From: Planctomyces sp.
GTDB taxonomy: Bacteria; Planctomycetota; Planctomycetia; Planctomycetales; Planctomycetaceae
NCBI GenBank assembly: GCA_005798445.1
Contig: SYJG01000340.1
Location: 1 to 44,928, forward strand
Reading direction: 5' to 3'
DNA length: 44,928 nucleotides
Made by a program: the position numbers and the translations under genes. This document shows, piece by piece, positions 16,731 to 38,793 of the stretch. The notes beneath the pieces were generated by a model. The model did not search any database and was not told where the DNA came from. It saw only the letters and a list, made by a program, of their open reading frames with translations. Each line of letters begins with the position of its first letter. Position 1 is the first letter of the stretch.

Positions 16731-16937
16731 GAAGTTTCCAACGATGCAAGTCGCAGCGCTTGATAGAATCCGTCCGGTAATCGGGAATACGCGGACTGCC
16801 TGATCCGAGCCGCTTGGTGCGATCAGACAAATCCTGCCGACTGGGAGACGGCCGACCTTGTTGACCGGTCGATTTCGACTCTCCCATAATCGGTCGTCGG
16901 GGAATGTGGACTCTTGGCTGAAGTGGAGACGAACGCC

Positions 16938-18110
16938 ATGTCGGGGTGGCTCTCGCGAGCGAAAGGAGCTTTGAGCGGTCGTGAGGCCGAAGTCGCTCTC
17001 GAACCGATGAAGTTCGCTTGCCCATGCGGCCACAAAGTCGAAGCCACACGCCGCTCGGAGTTTCAGCGAGTCCTCTGCTCGGACTGCGGCGAACGATTTT
17101 TTCTGTTGCCGATCGATGTTTACCCGCGCCCGGTGATGAAGATCCGCAAGGTCCAATCGCCAAAATCGGCGGAGACGACAAAGACGAAATCCCCCAGCAA
17201 GTTATCCACGCCGACGGAAGTCGCTCCCGCACGACCGGGGATCGACCTTCAGGCCGAACTGACGACCGCCCTCACAAAGGTTCGCTCGCGGTTCACCCCT
17301 TTGCGGCTGATCGTGTTGAGCTTGCTGACGGTCATCGGTCTGACCGGCTGGTGGCAATGGAACCGCGCGGCTCGATCATCGGCGGAGGCCGATTTCAAAT
17401 CGGCCACGGAATCAGGAATGGCGGCCTTACAGAAGGCTGATTATGTCGAGGCCGCACAACATTTCAGCCGTGCCGCAGCCGCCGCCGATCTGCTGCATCG
17501 TACGGACGTCTCCGCCGAGCAAGCTCGGCAGATGCACCGGCAACTGACCGCGCTCAACTCGTTGCTGACTCGCTCGCTCATCGAATTGATCGAGGCCGCA
17601 CGAGCGACTCGGTTGCGCGAAAACGTGCTCGCCGCCGAATCGGAATTCACAAACCTCCATGCCGGCCGGTGGCTCGTCATGCAAAGCGAGATCGCGCCGC
17701 CGGAAGCTTCCACGACACCAGCAGATGTCCAATGGGAACAGCGAATCCAGATCTTCGACGAACCGTTGGTCCTGACCGCCAACCTGCCGGCCTTCGCGAA
17801 GATCCAAGCGACCTCCCCAGTGTCGCCCGTTACCCCCGCCTCCGCCTCCGCCGATCCTCCGCCGGCCGGCGCATCCGCGCTGAATGATCTCGGACAACGC
17901 GAAGTCGTGTTTGCCGCGCAAGTCGAATCGCTCAAATGGAACTCCGAGCAATCGGCCTGGGTGCTGACACTCAAGGCCTCTTCAGGTTTCCTGTGGACCG
18001 ATTACGGCCTGTTACTCGCGGCGGGACTGCCGCCCGATGAACTGCACACGGAACCTCGACTGCGTGCGATGTTGACCGAACAAAGCGGCTGGATCGGAGC
18101 CATCGAATGA
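16938..18110 (+). CDS. zinc-ribbon, single-pass membrane protein
   Basis: A 390-residue protein. Residues about 27-55 form a zinc ribbon (CPCGHKVEATRRSEFQRVLC, then SDCG), followed by a disordered Lys/Thr/Ser-rich stretch, a transmembrane helix near residues 120-138 ('LRLIVLSLLTVIGLTGWW'), and a helical region with a TPR-like start ('AALQKADYVEAAQHFSRAAA'). The C-terminal domain ('REVVFAAQVESLKWNSEQSA') is unassigned. GGAG precedes ATG 16938; TTG 16914 is a less likely start. It is coupled to the next gene by ATGA and divergent from the FHA gene, with about 200 bp between the two starts for promoters. Confidence 0.75.
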   Translation: MSGWLSRAKGALSGREAEVALEPMKFACPCGHKVEATRRSEFQRVLCSDCGERFFLLPIDVYPRPVMKIRKVQSPKSAETTKTKSPSKLSTPTEVAPARPGIDLQAELTTALTKVRSRFTPLRLIVLSLLTVIGLTGWWQWNRAARSSAEADFKSATESGMAALQKADYVEAAQHFSRAAAAADLLHRTDVSAEQARQMHRQLTALNSLLTRSLIELIEAARATRLRENVLAAESEFTNLHAGRWLVMQSEIAPPEASTTPADVQWEQRIQIFDEPLVLTANLPAFAKIQATSPVSPVTPASASADPPPAGASALNDLGQREVVFAAQVESLKWNSEQSAWVLTLKASSGFLWTDYGLLLAAGLPPDELHTEPRLRAMLTEQSGWIGAIE

Positions 18111-19849
18111 GACGGGCTGCAAGATTGCAAATTGCAAATTGCAAATTGCAAATCGCAATTTGGGGACAGCAAGAGGCATCCGATCGAAGTGCTGGATTGG
18201 AACGCCCAACCCCAGACACTCGTCAAGCTGGCGGATTCGTCCCTCCACAATTCACAATTTGCAATTTGCAATTTGCAATTTGCAATTTCTTTCTCCCCGT
18301 CATCCTCTTGCTGCTCGCACCCACCACAGTCTCCGCGGCCGGCGGCGCGCAGTCACTGCAAAGTTTCCTGGAGCTCAAGCCACAATGGCCGGATCTCGTT
18401 GGCTCGTCGTTTCGCATCGAGGGGCATTACGCAATTCTCGTTCGCGACTCGTTGAGGATGAAGAATTGCGATCTGCCATTCAAAGCGGCGCAACCGATCA
18501 AACTAGTGGGCAATTCCAAAGTCATCGAGGTCTCTGGCCGACTGGCGAAAGAGACGACCGGCGGCAAGTTGTATTTCGAGGTTGAGCAAGTCCGTCAATT
18601 GCCGACCGACCTGCAGACAATGGCGGAGCGCGAACGTGCAATCACACGAGGCACCTCGAAGCAGTGGTACGAATTGGCCGAGTGGGCTGGCCCTCGCGGT
18701 AAGTTTTACAGCGACGAGGAACTCCTGGAACGAGCGAAACTTGCCAACCGCAAAGGTTTGAACCTCGAACGGCAAGAACTGAAAGAACTCACACCCACAA
18801 GTTTGCGCACGTTGACTTCCCGCATCTCCGATTTGGGCCTGGAAGATTCGCTGCGGCTCGACTGGCTGCACGAGTCCTACTGGCTGGAGTGGGAAGCGTT
18901 GAGGAAGTCTGCACCGCAGGTCGATCTCACAGTCGAGGACATCGACCTGACGAAAGACCCGGTGTTTCAGTTTCTCAGTCGGCTCGACAGAGACTTGCCC
19001 GGCGCGAAGGCCCGTGTCGCGGATGTCCTGCCGCTGCTGGCCAACGAGTACCGCCGAAACTCCGTGCTGACGTACCACAACGCTTCCGAGGTCAAACGCC
19101 GCACGCTCGAACGCTTGTTCCACACGGAAGTCGCGACCGCGACGATTGCTCGCGTCACGAAACCGGACGACAGCAACGGCAGCGAGATCGCCAATCGCAT
19201 TGACGAGCTGATCCCCGAACAACACGAACTCGCCGAGAAACACCGTGATGCGGAACTCCAATTCCTGGTGAAGAACTCGGCGACGTTGAGCCGCAACCAA
19301 CTTGGCGACCTCGTTGAGCGTTGCCGTGACCGCAAACAACCGAATCTCGCCAAAGAGGCGATCACGCGTTGGCTGGCTCGGCGCGAACAGTCACTCCGCA
19401 AAGATGGAGTGACCGGATTGATCCAGCTCTCGGACGAACGCCTCGCGCTATTGCAAGACCAGCCTGGTGCGGGAGCCTTGCTGCTCGAGGCGTTGCCACT
19501 CGCGCCGAAGAATGAAGACATTCTTGAACGGCTGAAGAAGCTCGGCTATCAAGAAGTCAACGGTCAGTGGGTTGCGCCACAGTTGAATCCGGCGGCACCA
19601 AACACCCCAATGCCGGTCGTGAACGAGACGGAACTCGAACGATTCATCCGCCTCGGAGTCCCGAAGATCGGCATGACCCCCGCTCAACTGCTGAAGTGCC
19701 TGGGTTCACCACAGTCTCTGACGCGCGTTGCGACGTCCGGCCGAGTCACAGAGACCTGGACCTACCGCGACGGTACGACCGTGCGCTACAGCGTCACGGT
19801 TGAGCGCCGTCCCAGCCGCGGCACAGCCGAGGTTGTGGCCGTGCAGTGA
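18107..19849 (+). CDS. exported protein with BamE-like C-terminal domain; signal peptide interrupted by a repeat
   Basis: A 580-residue protein coupled to the preceding gene. Residues 1-6 (MRRAAR) are a typical signal-peptide n-region and residues 61-77 (FFLPVILLLLAPTTVSA) a typical h-region and cleavage site, but 54 residues translated from a repeat element separate them. Joining the two sides gives a normal signal peptide. The mature part is helical and charged, and ends (about 525-580) with a SmpA/OmlA/BamE-like unit: 'KIGMTPAQLLKCLGSPQSL' then 'VTETWTYRDGTTVRY'. TTG 18266, inside the repeat, could restart translation just ahead of the h-region. Function unknown; probably an envelope protein. 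Confidence 0.72.
   Translation: MRRAARLQIANCKLQIAIWGQQEASDRSAGLERPTPDTRQAGGFVPPQFTICNLQFAICNFFLPVILLLLAPTTVSAAGGAQSLQSFLELKPQWPDLVGSSFRIEGHYAILVRDSLRMKNCDLPFKAAQPIKLVGNSKVIEVSGRLAKETTGGKLYFEVEQVRQLPTDLQTMAERERAITRGTSKQWYELAEWAGPRGKFYSDEELLERAKLANRKGLNLERQELKELTPTSLRTLTSRISDLGLEDSLRLDWLHESYWLEWEALRKSAPQVDLTVEDIDLTKDPVFQFLSRLDRDLPGAKARVADVLPLLANEYRRNSVLTYHNASEVKRRTLERLFHTEVATATIARVTKPDDSNGSEIANRIDELIPEQHELAEKHRDAELQFLVKNSATLSRNQLGDLVERCRDRKQPNLAKEAITRWLARREQSLRKDGVTGLIQLSDERLALLQDQPGAGALLLEALPLAPKNEDILERLKKLGYQEVNGQWVAPQLNPAAPNTPMPVVNETELERFIRLGVPKIGMTPAQLLKCLGSPQSLTRVATSGRVTETWTYRDGTTVRYSVTVERRPSRGTAEVVAVQ
18124..18289. repeat. heptamer-array inverted repeat (element I) inside a CDS
   Basis: The left end carries about four tandem copies of a 7-mer (ATTGCAA) and the right end about four copies of its complement (TTGCAAT). 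Between them lies about 90 bp of unrelated sequence. The whole fits a large hairpin of about 166 bp. It keeps the reading frame and encodes QIANCKLQIA- and NLQFAICN-type stretches. Confidence 0.9.
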
Positions 19850-37418: not shown

Positions 37419-37610
37419 AAATCCCAAGCTCCAAAACCCAATGTCTAAGGAATGACCAAATCCAAAATCCTAAGAACCAAAAACGTGTCTGCGACGCGTG
37501 CGAATTCCCAACGATCCTCAATGAATGCCGCACATCGTACTGCAAGTTTGGGATTTGAAATTTGATCCTTGGGATTTCCTTGGACATTGGGTTTTGGAAA
37601 TTGGGATTTC
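37419..37610. repeat. imperfect AT-rich inverted repeat (element J)
   Basis: The left side (AAATCCCAAGCTCCAAAACC then CAATGTCTAAGGAA) and right side (TTCCTTGGACATTG then GGTTTTGGAAATTGGGATTT) are reverse complements with scattered mismatches, about 60 nt each around a 65-bp centre. It ends 2 bp from the sialidase stop. It is clearly more AT-rich than its surroundings. Confidence 0.85.
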
Positions 37611-37611
37611 C

Positions 37612-38793
37612 TCACACCATTCGCCAGCGTGCTTGACGCAACTGCGCATTCGGCGAACCCGCCAGCAACTCGTACCACACCGTCACGAGCGTGCCGTCAT
37701 CGCACTCCACCGTCGAGGGATATCCCATGTCGCCAGAGATCGCGTCGTCGCTGATCGTCAGCGGCTCGCTCCAACGGCGACCGTTGTCGTCACTGACGCG
37801 TGCAAGATTTCCGAACGGCTTGCGTCGATGACCATAGCTCATCAGCAGGCGACCATCACGCAGCCGCAGCAAATGAGAAGGCAAGCCCCACACACCGATC
37901 GAATGCGGCACCGACCAAGTTCGTCCGCCATCCGTCGATTCCGATTGCAGAGTCTCGCGCTCATTTGGCGAGTTGTGATTGCGAATGTGCCCGAGCAACG
38001 TGCCATCCGATGCTTCGACCGCGTGCAGTTCGTGATAATTTTTCATCGGATCGTCACCTGGCCGAGCGGGGATCGTCGCCAACCACTCCCACGTCACGCC
38101 ATCGTCCTTCGATTCGCACACGCCGATGCGGTCATCCTTCCACAACGCTTTGCCCGCGTAAATCAGCCGCCCATCGCGCAGCACTGTCGGCCCATGCGGA
38201 CTGTTGAGCGGCACCGCGTACCGCGCCGACCATGTTACGCCACCGTCGGTCGAACGGATCATCCAGGTTCCGACTTCCTTCTGCCGTTGCTCCGCCGTGA
38301 TGCGGCCATGAGCCGCACGCCACTCCAACAGCAACAGGTCGTGTTCCAGTTTTTCTTTGCCGGGAGGCAGGGACTTCTTTTCCATCCTCTGCATCTCGGC
38401 TTCGTAAGCCAGTGACGTGAACGTCGTCACCAGAAGCGAACCCTTCGCCGTCTCCACGACGCCCGCGTCACGATCATCAATCGGCCCATCAATCAACACC
38501 TGTGGCCAACCCCACGACTTGCCGTCATCGTGCGACCGCATCATCTCGACGCGACCAAACGGACAGACGTGCTTCTCACGTCCGCCGGAGAACACCAGCA
38601 GCAACTCCCCATTCTTCCGCCGAGCCAACGTCGGCCACCCGTGATACAGCGGCGGCTTCCAACTGATGACCCGCCGTTCCAGCACCTCGATCTTCGGGGT
38701 GGCGGCTTGTGCGATGCCGCAAGGAAGAATCACACCGCCAACTGCGACGGCGCTCGCCGTCAGAAACTCGCGTCTGGTCTGCCGAATCGACAT
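37612..38793 (-). CDS. Tat-exported sialidase-like (BNR/Asp-box) protein
   Basis: A 393-residue protein with a Tat signal ('RQTRREFLTASAVAVGG') and five Asp-boxes (SxDxGxxW type): 'SHDDGKSWG', 'STDGGVTWS', 'SKDDGVTWE', 'STDGGRTWS' and 'SDDNGRRWS'. This indicates the six-bladed sialidase beta-propeller. Sialidase-fold proteins in planctomycetes are often of unknown specificity and may act on other acidic sugars or none; the catalytic Arg triad cannot be placed with certainty. AGAGGAA precedes ATG 38793; a longer frame to 38835 is not supported. It is divergent from the M28 peptidase gene with only 79 bp between starts. Confidence 0.88.
   Translation of the reverse strand: MSIRQTRREFLTASAVAVGGVILPCGIAQAATPKIEVLERRVISWKPPLYHGWPTLARRKNGELLLVFSGGREKHVCPFGRVEMMRSHDDGKSWGWPQVLIDGPIDDRDAGVVETAKGSLLVTTFTSLAYEAEMQRMEKKSLPPGKEKLEHDLLLLEWRAAHGRITAEQRQKEVGTWMIRSTDGGVTWSARYAVPLNSPHGPTVLRDGRLIYAGKALWKDDRIGVCESKDDGVTWEWLATIPARPGDDPMKNYHELHAVEASDGTLLGHIRNHNSPNERETLQSESTDGGRTWSVPHSIGVWGLPSHLLRLRDGRLLMSYGHRRKPFGNLARVSDDNGRRWSEPLTISDDAISGDMGYPSTVECDDGTLVTVWYELLAGSPNAQLRQARWRMV

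Follow-up and report, generated by a model that had tools for sequence, protein, structure and literature searches.

An inverted heptamer array lying in frame within the putative signal peptide of a Planctomyces gene, and its candidate relation to S23p-bearing elements

How does a protein gene come to hold a long inverted repeat in the middle of what looks like its signal peptide, and is that repeat translated? The question is raised by an open reading frame (ORF) at 18107-19849 of a 44,928-nt stretch of Planctomyces sp. DNA (contig SYJG01000340.1; the whole stretch is called the window below). Its product reads MRRAAR-[54 residues]-FFLPVILLLLAPTTVSA-AGG, in which the 54 residues span an array of heptamers in two inverted arms, together with the loop between them, and the hydrophobic stretch is formed by residues 61-77. 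Our preferred answer, to which we give a probability of about 0.72, is that the insert is a relative, without an S23p gene, of the S23p-encoding intervening sequences (IVS) known from 23S rRNA, and that its inverted heptamer array is translated as the n-region and part of the hydrophobic h-region. Movement of the element, its S23p descent and export of the protein are all parts of this answer that we infer. The features of the locus are as follows.

16914..18110, + strand: upstream ORF, whose end lies in the ATGA overlap; without a Pfam family
18107..18109, + strand: ATG start codon, which shares ATGA with the upstream gene's stop codon
18107..18124, + strand: codons 1-6, MRRAAR, present in the window species only
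18124..18166, + strand: left arm, A-rich, (TTGCAAA)n, which translates as LQIANCKLQIA
18167..18243, + strand: loop, with the gene's frame open throughout, no S23p ORF and no clear relative
18244..18288, + strand: right arm, T-rich, (TTTGCAA)n, which translates as QFTICNLQFAICN and adjoins the hydrophobic core
18287..18337, + strand: hydrophobic core and cleavage-like motif FFLPVILLLLAPTTVSA, placed by eye and a crude hydropathy rule
18338..19849, + strand: host gene body; no Pfam or NCBIfam match

The two arms (18124-18166 and 18244-18286) are 43 nt long, 88% complementary and separated by 77 nt, which confirms the inverted heptamer array that an initial annotation of this DNA had placed, in frame and with 54 open residues, between n- and h-region. 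The arrays are imperfect, with about six units and degenerate ends on the left and about five units plus a degenerate outer unit on the right; Tandem Repeats Finder places the heptamers at 18118-18162 and 18255-18288. The predicted RNA fold of the element is very stable (-82.1 kcal/mol, z = -6.19, with none of 200 shuffles equally stable). Features of a Sec signal peptide, namely a positive n-region, a hydrophobic core and small residues at -3/-1, are recognizable, here and throughout as judged by eye and by a crude hydropathy rule rather than by SignalP. Sequence matching 18290-19846 occurs in 161 of 170 family genomes; a scan of genome contigs yielded nine loci. Neither the host gene nor the upstream ORF could be assigned to a Pfam or NCBIfam family (the upstream ORF gave sub-cut-off NCBIfam matches only), and an Rfam scan of 17800-18600 returned a single sub-threshold match and no rRNA or intron family.

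Evidence on translation comes from the same site in related species. Within a genus set of 12 genomes, including the window's own (G000), the gene is present in 11, and the remaining genome (G108) has neither a match to the heptamer pattern introduced below nor one to the host protein. Eight of the ten other orthologues carry an array or a reduced remnant at this site, one carries none, and one has an unrelated N-terminus:

G112, G106 and G104: GTGCAAA arrays
G109: collapsed GTGCAAA remnant, loop gone
G110: TTGGAAA array
G105: TTGCAAA array
G111: mixed array with TTGCAAA-like units
G113: short right half only
G114 (locus L001): no array; the N-terminus MTRHQSQLSVFNGLLSLFLLLLAPATLCA runs directly into the hydrophobic stretch
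G107: unrelated N-terminus

Across the ten loci other than G107, the distance from the ATG to an anchor is 90, 93, 117, 132, 138, 177, 177, 198, 201 or 240 nt: nine lengths, every one a multiple of 3. The frame is free of stops in these loci; the two alternative frames have 18 and 3. The array plays no part in anchoring the start, since ATGA ends an upstream frame that is open for 405 codons or more in 11/11 genus loci. What the genus preserves at this site is the start, the frame and the hydrophobic core, while the array varies in word, length and loop. With the overlap start and the frame kept through nine lengths, an untranslated array would be hard to reconcile with these sequences.

Translation could instead begin downstream of the array, at an in-frame TTG (18266, with 24 residues from there up to VSA) or at another internal start, which would turn the array into a leader and leave a short signal peptide. 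An ATG or GTG does follow within 25 codons past the arm in 87 of 129 gene-outward sides, and many other arrays may hence be untranslated leaders. At the window gene we consider this improbable, given the overlap start and the frame kept in 10/10 genes, the frame kept in 6/6 and 5/5 members of two further gene sets (set1 and set4, below), and internal in-frame starts that are not conserved: L001 and L008 lack any further in-frame ATG, GTG or TTG, and L005 has only a second ATG adjacent to the first. Of the three outcomes that had been proposed, a translated long n-region would fit the frame conservation and the lack of a conserved internal start best, with a restart at 18266 and a loss of export not favoured.

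The orthologues also revise the history of the insert. The expectation that an orthologue without the element would run straight into the hydrophobic stretch is borne out by L001, and the orthologues show no uniform 54-residue insert and an unrelated N-terminus in G107 only. The proposal that a single element moved into a single gene did not hold, as most of the eight arrays and remnants use other heptamers, nor can MRRAAR be the original n-region: close relatives have MTRNQSRLSVF or similar in its place, and their flank MT(R/E)NQ(S/T)RLS is missing from the window gene, so that MRRAAR is not ancestral. A tree of the protein body, with moderate supports and one of eight inner branches starred, clusters the window with G114 and G106 (92/91), the outer member of the enclosing group being the GTGCAAA-bearing G104 (92/91). 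Within a GTGCAAA group, the window copy is probably derived, with flank, loop and word all replaced. The earlier interpretation as an insertion is partly supported.

Outside the genus, several family-level homologues have ordinary short N-termini by eye (L021, L023, L024, L031, L035, L036, L039), in a reading that left out nine minus-strand loci and did not class L030. Another array is borne by L028, the same gene in another genus (32% identity): an unrelated, GGAAACC-like inverted array at 1388-1507, between the frame opening and the core and within a longer stem (-64 kcal/mol), is an independent case of an inverted array at this place.

The window gene is not alone within the genus. Reading outward from the elements (hydropathy threshold 2.0), we found arrays fused to a signal-peptide-like core in six species for set1, five for set2, four for set3 and five for set4. 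By eye, the array makes up most of the core in set5, set6 and set7 (four, three and three species), as in L104, which reads MQIANWGAAIILQFAFCILHFAIPHSANAQ. The frame is kept from a conserved ATG context through five lengths in set1 and through four lengths in set4. Four of the five set4 starts are a GTGA that ends an upstream frame with 219 or more codons; the fifth (L188) is an ATG beside an upstream stop; for set1, no stop overlap was found and just 26 open codons precede the start (73 in L109), so that we infer this start. When arm residues were counted (threshold 1.8), 32 of the 38 outward sides with no ATG or GTG within 25 codons past the arm were signal-peptide-like, compared to 43 of the 87 where such a codon follows. 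One set4 member (L248, in G111) has a loop of about 162 nt that holds a long inverted repeat of its own (AGGTGTTCTGATTTCTGTTTTGGC and its complement), nested in the array and in frame.

To what class of element do these arrays belong? In the 8-Mb genome of the window, the pattern TTTNCANTTTNCANTTTNCA is matched 64 times, and these matches group into about 24 dispersed places. A reversed-pattern control had no match there; among the other 11 genus genomes, it matched solely in G105 (2) and G110 (51). The 51 in G110 all lie on one strand and are perhaps a separate long tandem array. A census of 140 fetched stretches plus the window, drawn from ten genomes and leaving out G110 (98 pattern matches) and parts of G105, G106, G107 and G104, yielded 144 parsed elements, of which 65 have both arms long, 52 pair a long arm with one or more opposite units, and 27 are one-armed. 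What counts as a short arm may amount to no more than one unit lying within 260 nt, and the 52 may include chance partners. The A-rich arm precedes the T-rich arm in all 65 neighbouring long-arm pairs, which means that a translated copy reads Lys-bearing first and hydrophobic second. The majority words of the two arms are identical in 50 of these pairs, compared to a mean of 22.2 and a maximum of 32 in 1000 permutations. The most frequent words are TTGCAAA, TTGAAAA, GTGCAAA, ATGAAAA and TTGGAAA; TTGCAAA, GTGCAAA and TTGGAAA are stop-free in all six frames, and TTGAAAA and ATGAAAA contain TGA. As 7 and 3 have no common factor, every frame yields the same seven-residue cycle, which is Lys-bearing for A-rich arms (CKLQIAN, CKVQSAK, WKLEIGN) and moderately hydrophobic for T-rich arms (FAICNLQ, FALCTLH, FPISNFQ).

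We compared 18 loops from four sites, delimited by hand. Loops can stay alike through a change of word, as between G000 (TTGCAAA) and G112 (GTGCAAA left arm) in set4 (z = 15.6) and between G000 and G113 (TTGGAAA) in set2 (z = 9.7). At the window-gene site, it is in reverse complement that the loops of G110 (z = 10.1), G106 (6.9) and G112 (5.5) match that of G105, as expected if the G105 loop had been inverted between its arms. Within sites, z reached 3 or more in 15 forward and 5 reverse comparisons of 34 pairs. The window loop was also considered as an S23p fragment or a dispersed repeat, and both were rejected: it has no convincing match elsewhere in the 12 genus genomes, the best non-self match having an E-value of 0.0033 over 35 nt.

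Dispersed copies with inverted repeats would also be expected of an ordinary miniature inverted-repeat transposable element (MITE), mobilized by a transposase and showing terminal inverted repeats and a target duplication. The roughly 24 genomic places and one subfamily whose right arms have the same succession of words at six sites, spread over two species, agree with this. However, the loops differ between the four sites compared, the window loop included, with no whole-element sequence in common; orthologous sites bear different words; and several species have elements at corresponding sites. Together this suggests persistence with turnover, and we regard a conventional MITE as unlikely. 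The six sites of the subfamily lie in G112 and G111 (L175, L176, L178, L190, L218, L251); their short loops differ, and the left arms of L175 and L176 match that word order fully, whereas those of L178, L190 and L251 depart from it.

The link to S23p comes from sibling copies. Two TTGCAAA arrays in the window's bin, on contigs C119 and C455, enclose a PF05635 (23S_rRNA_IVP) gene; a whole-genome PF05635 search gave no match at the window element. The genus has 36 PF05635 matches, of which 32 were examined: an inverted stem surrounds the gene in 23 of them, compared to none of 24 controls, and in 22 of the 24 with E < 1e-10. Across the phylum, inverted stems bracket the best S23p matches in 26/26 loci versus 0/26 controls, these loci being the best-scoring match per genome rather than a random draw, with 3 of 29 skipped where the contig ended. 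The thresholds (12 for the stem, 10 for the period) were set by us, and L269, L272 and L281 score exactly 12. Period-7 runs pass in 16 of the 26 stems, period 8 in 6, period 9 in 1, and periods 5 and 6 in none. Words around the phylum S23p genes vary widely; within the genus, ORF-less arrays and some S23p copies use common words (TTGCAAA, GTGCAAA), which is suggestive of a common origin, though no proof of one. A comparison of flanks between S23p-bearing and ORF-less elements found no site with the ORF in one species and without it in another; its non-array matches joined S23p loci among themselves, their own overlapping fetches, or one locus that had been retrieved for a different purpose.

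One of the two S23p copies exposes a probable binning problem. Both flanks of L112 (C455 in G000) are 100% identical over 850 nt each to those of L157 (C243 in G105), although the host proteins of these genomes are 72% identical, which suggests that the contig was cross-binned into one or other of these metagenome-assembled genomes (MAGs). The named genomes being MAGs, one could suspect that the arrays are assembly artefacts, or the outcome of plain local-repeat slippage. We hold this to be highly improbable: arrays stand at the same site in separately labelled isolates (names dated 2015 and 2019), the polarity is kept in every long-arm pair, and slippage alone gives no matching second arm.

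In 23S rRNA, IVS stems are cut and excised by RNase III (PMC4990558), and the arrays here might likewise be kept for a role in RNA, such as RNase III cutting or the control of translational coupling, with coding as a by-product. The stability of the window stem is in line with such a role, as is the fact that L002, L006 and L019 still fold as stems despite differing words. Yet the gene persists in orthologues with no, a collapsed or a half array (L001, L003, L008), and an RNA role would not require the frame to be kept, which leaves this explanation with a small though appreciable chance of being right.

Several observations weigh against a translated, S23p-allied array. An S23p ORF is missing from the window copy, whose loop has no clear relative, so that the case for S23p descent is carried by the arms, and among the eight weakest genus PF05635 matches only one has a stem. 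Loops are unshared among the four sites, which speaks against movement of whole units. Between sites, 5% of 119 loop pairs in forward and 9% in reverse orientation also have z of at least 3, so a lone z near 3 means little; the best forward match of the window loop among the five other window-gene loops is z = 3.1, and the G113 loop of set1 is unlike every other set1 loop. The polarity rule is limited to the TTTNCAN word family, and L114, an S23p element with another word, has its T-rich arm first; arm words differ in 15 of the 65 pairs. The array-free G114 gene may itself be a deletion. Among the 32 signal-peptide-like sides, gene calls appear doubtful by eye in L084, L179, L221 (twice), L223 and L234 (minus strand). 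With post-arm residues alone (threshold 2.0), 18/38 sides without a following ATG or GTG are signal-peptide-like, compared to 32/87 of the others, and the fall from 32/38 to 18/38 implies that the arms supply part of the core. Finally, signal-peptide-like outward sides number 60/128, versus 35/105 for control genes (Fisher p = 0.044, threshold 2.0), a weak preference obtained under a liberal rule, with orthologues not collapsed and all outward sides counted, including those whose frame opens after the element. A preference of the elements for signal-peptide genes is not proven, and a strong claim of this kind was dropped on these counts.

Signal peptide sequences are loosely constrained, and many Lys-bearing then hydrophobic peptides can serve as such. 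Signal peptides would tolerate these arrays for that reason, a palindrome running from A-rich to T-rich being expected to encode the Lys-bearing and then the hydrophobic part on either strand. ORF-less arrays, the window's included, may be relatives or remains of S23p/IVS-like elements. Words would change by slippage within an arm combined with copying between arms or arrays, through template switching or gene conversion, and one loop looks as if it had been inverted in place. More tentatively still, and with the odds somewhat against it, heptamer hairpins could form a self-renewing class allied to S23p and IVS elements, taken up repeatedly as modular, exchangeable signal peptides and rewritten by copying between arms or arrays, with S23p as a factor for the copying or movement of heptamer-armed elements. 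The stems around S23p genes, present at every phylum locus tested, offer a handle on the function of S23p. Ten species that have a single gene in nine N-terminal lengths also make a natural test of how much variation in n-region and core is tolerated by export.

How does this compare with known systems? As in 23S rRNA IVS with an S23p ORF (PF05635), the arms are complementary and form a stem-loop, and sibling copies hold the S23p ORF in the loop; the 5' region of the Coxiella IVS, ahead of the S23p ORF, is reported to carry heptameric repeats, and the same source describes S23p proteins as having no known function (PMC4990558). Unlike these, the arrays here lie in protein genes and intergenic DNA rather than rRNA, their arms are long heptamer arrays of variable word, and the 77-nt loop of the window copy holds no S23p ORF. 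Palindromic repeats translated in frame within host genes are also represented by the Rickettsia palindromic elements (RPE) and the Yersinia YPAL/RU-2 and enterobacterial repetitive intergenic consensus (ERIC)/RU-1 elements, with RU-2 contributing to one predicted signal peptide (PMC2759123, PMC2229807). Such elements are described as being of fixed sequence, whereas in the present arrays the word is exchanged while the site is kept, in several gene sets, and the arms of heptamer arrays fall in the n- and h-region.

Paired heptamer repeats in which, at a single site, one word has repeatedly given way to another, as seen here, are known from the P6b hairpin of the cyanobacterial tRNA-Leu intron, including that of Nostoc (PMC3488679, PMC4476775). 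That system is a non-coding group I intron with two word classes, for which the available text reports no S23p or signal-peptide link, whereas the window array lies in a coding frame. Long inverted repeats within translated genes occur in mitochondria of Nematomorpha, where the arms encode conserved protein regions and heptamer units go unmentioned in the abstract (PMC6649704). The heptamer satellites of PMC6749651 have no bearing on the window element. Among the papers listed from the open-access PMC literature, with preprints and most subscription papers outside this scope, we found no element class with word turnover at kept coding sites, no heptamer arrays framing S23p loci, and no recurring source that keeps rewriting signal peptides.

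The window holds a second inverted repeat array at 37420-37615, of another word family (AATCCCAA, CCAATGTC / GGACATTGGG, TTGGAAATTGGGATT), and words resembling those of this array flank the S23p gene in L116.

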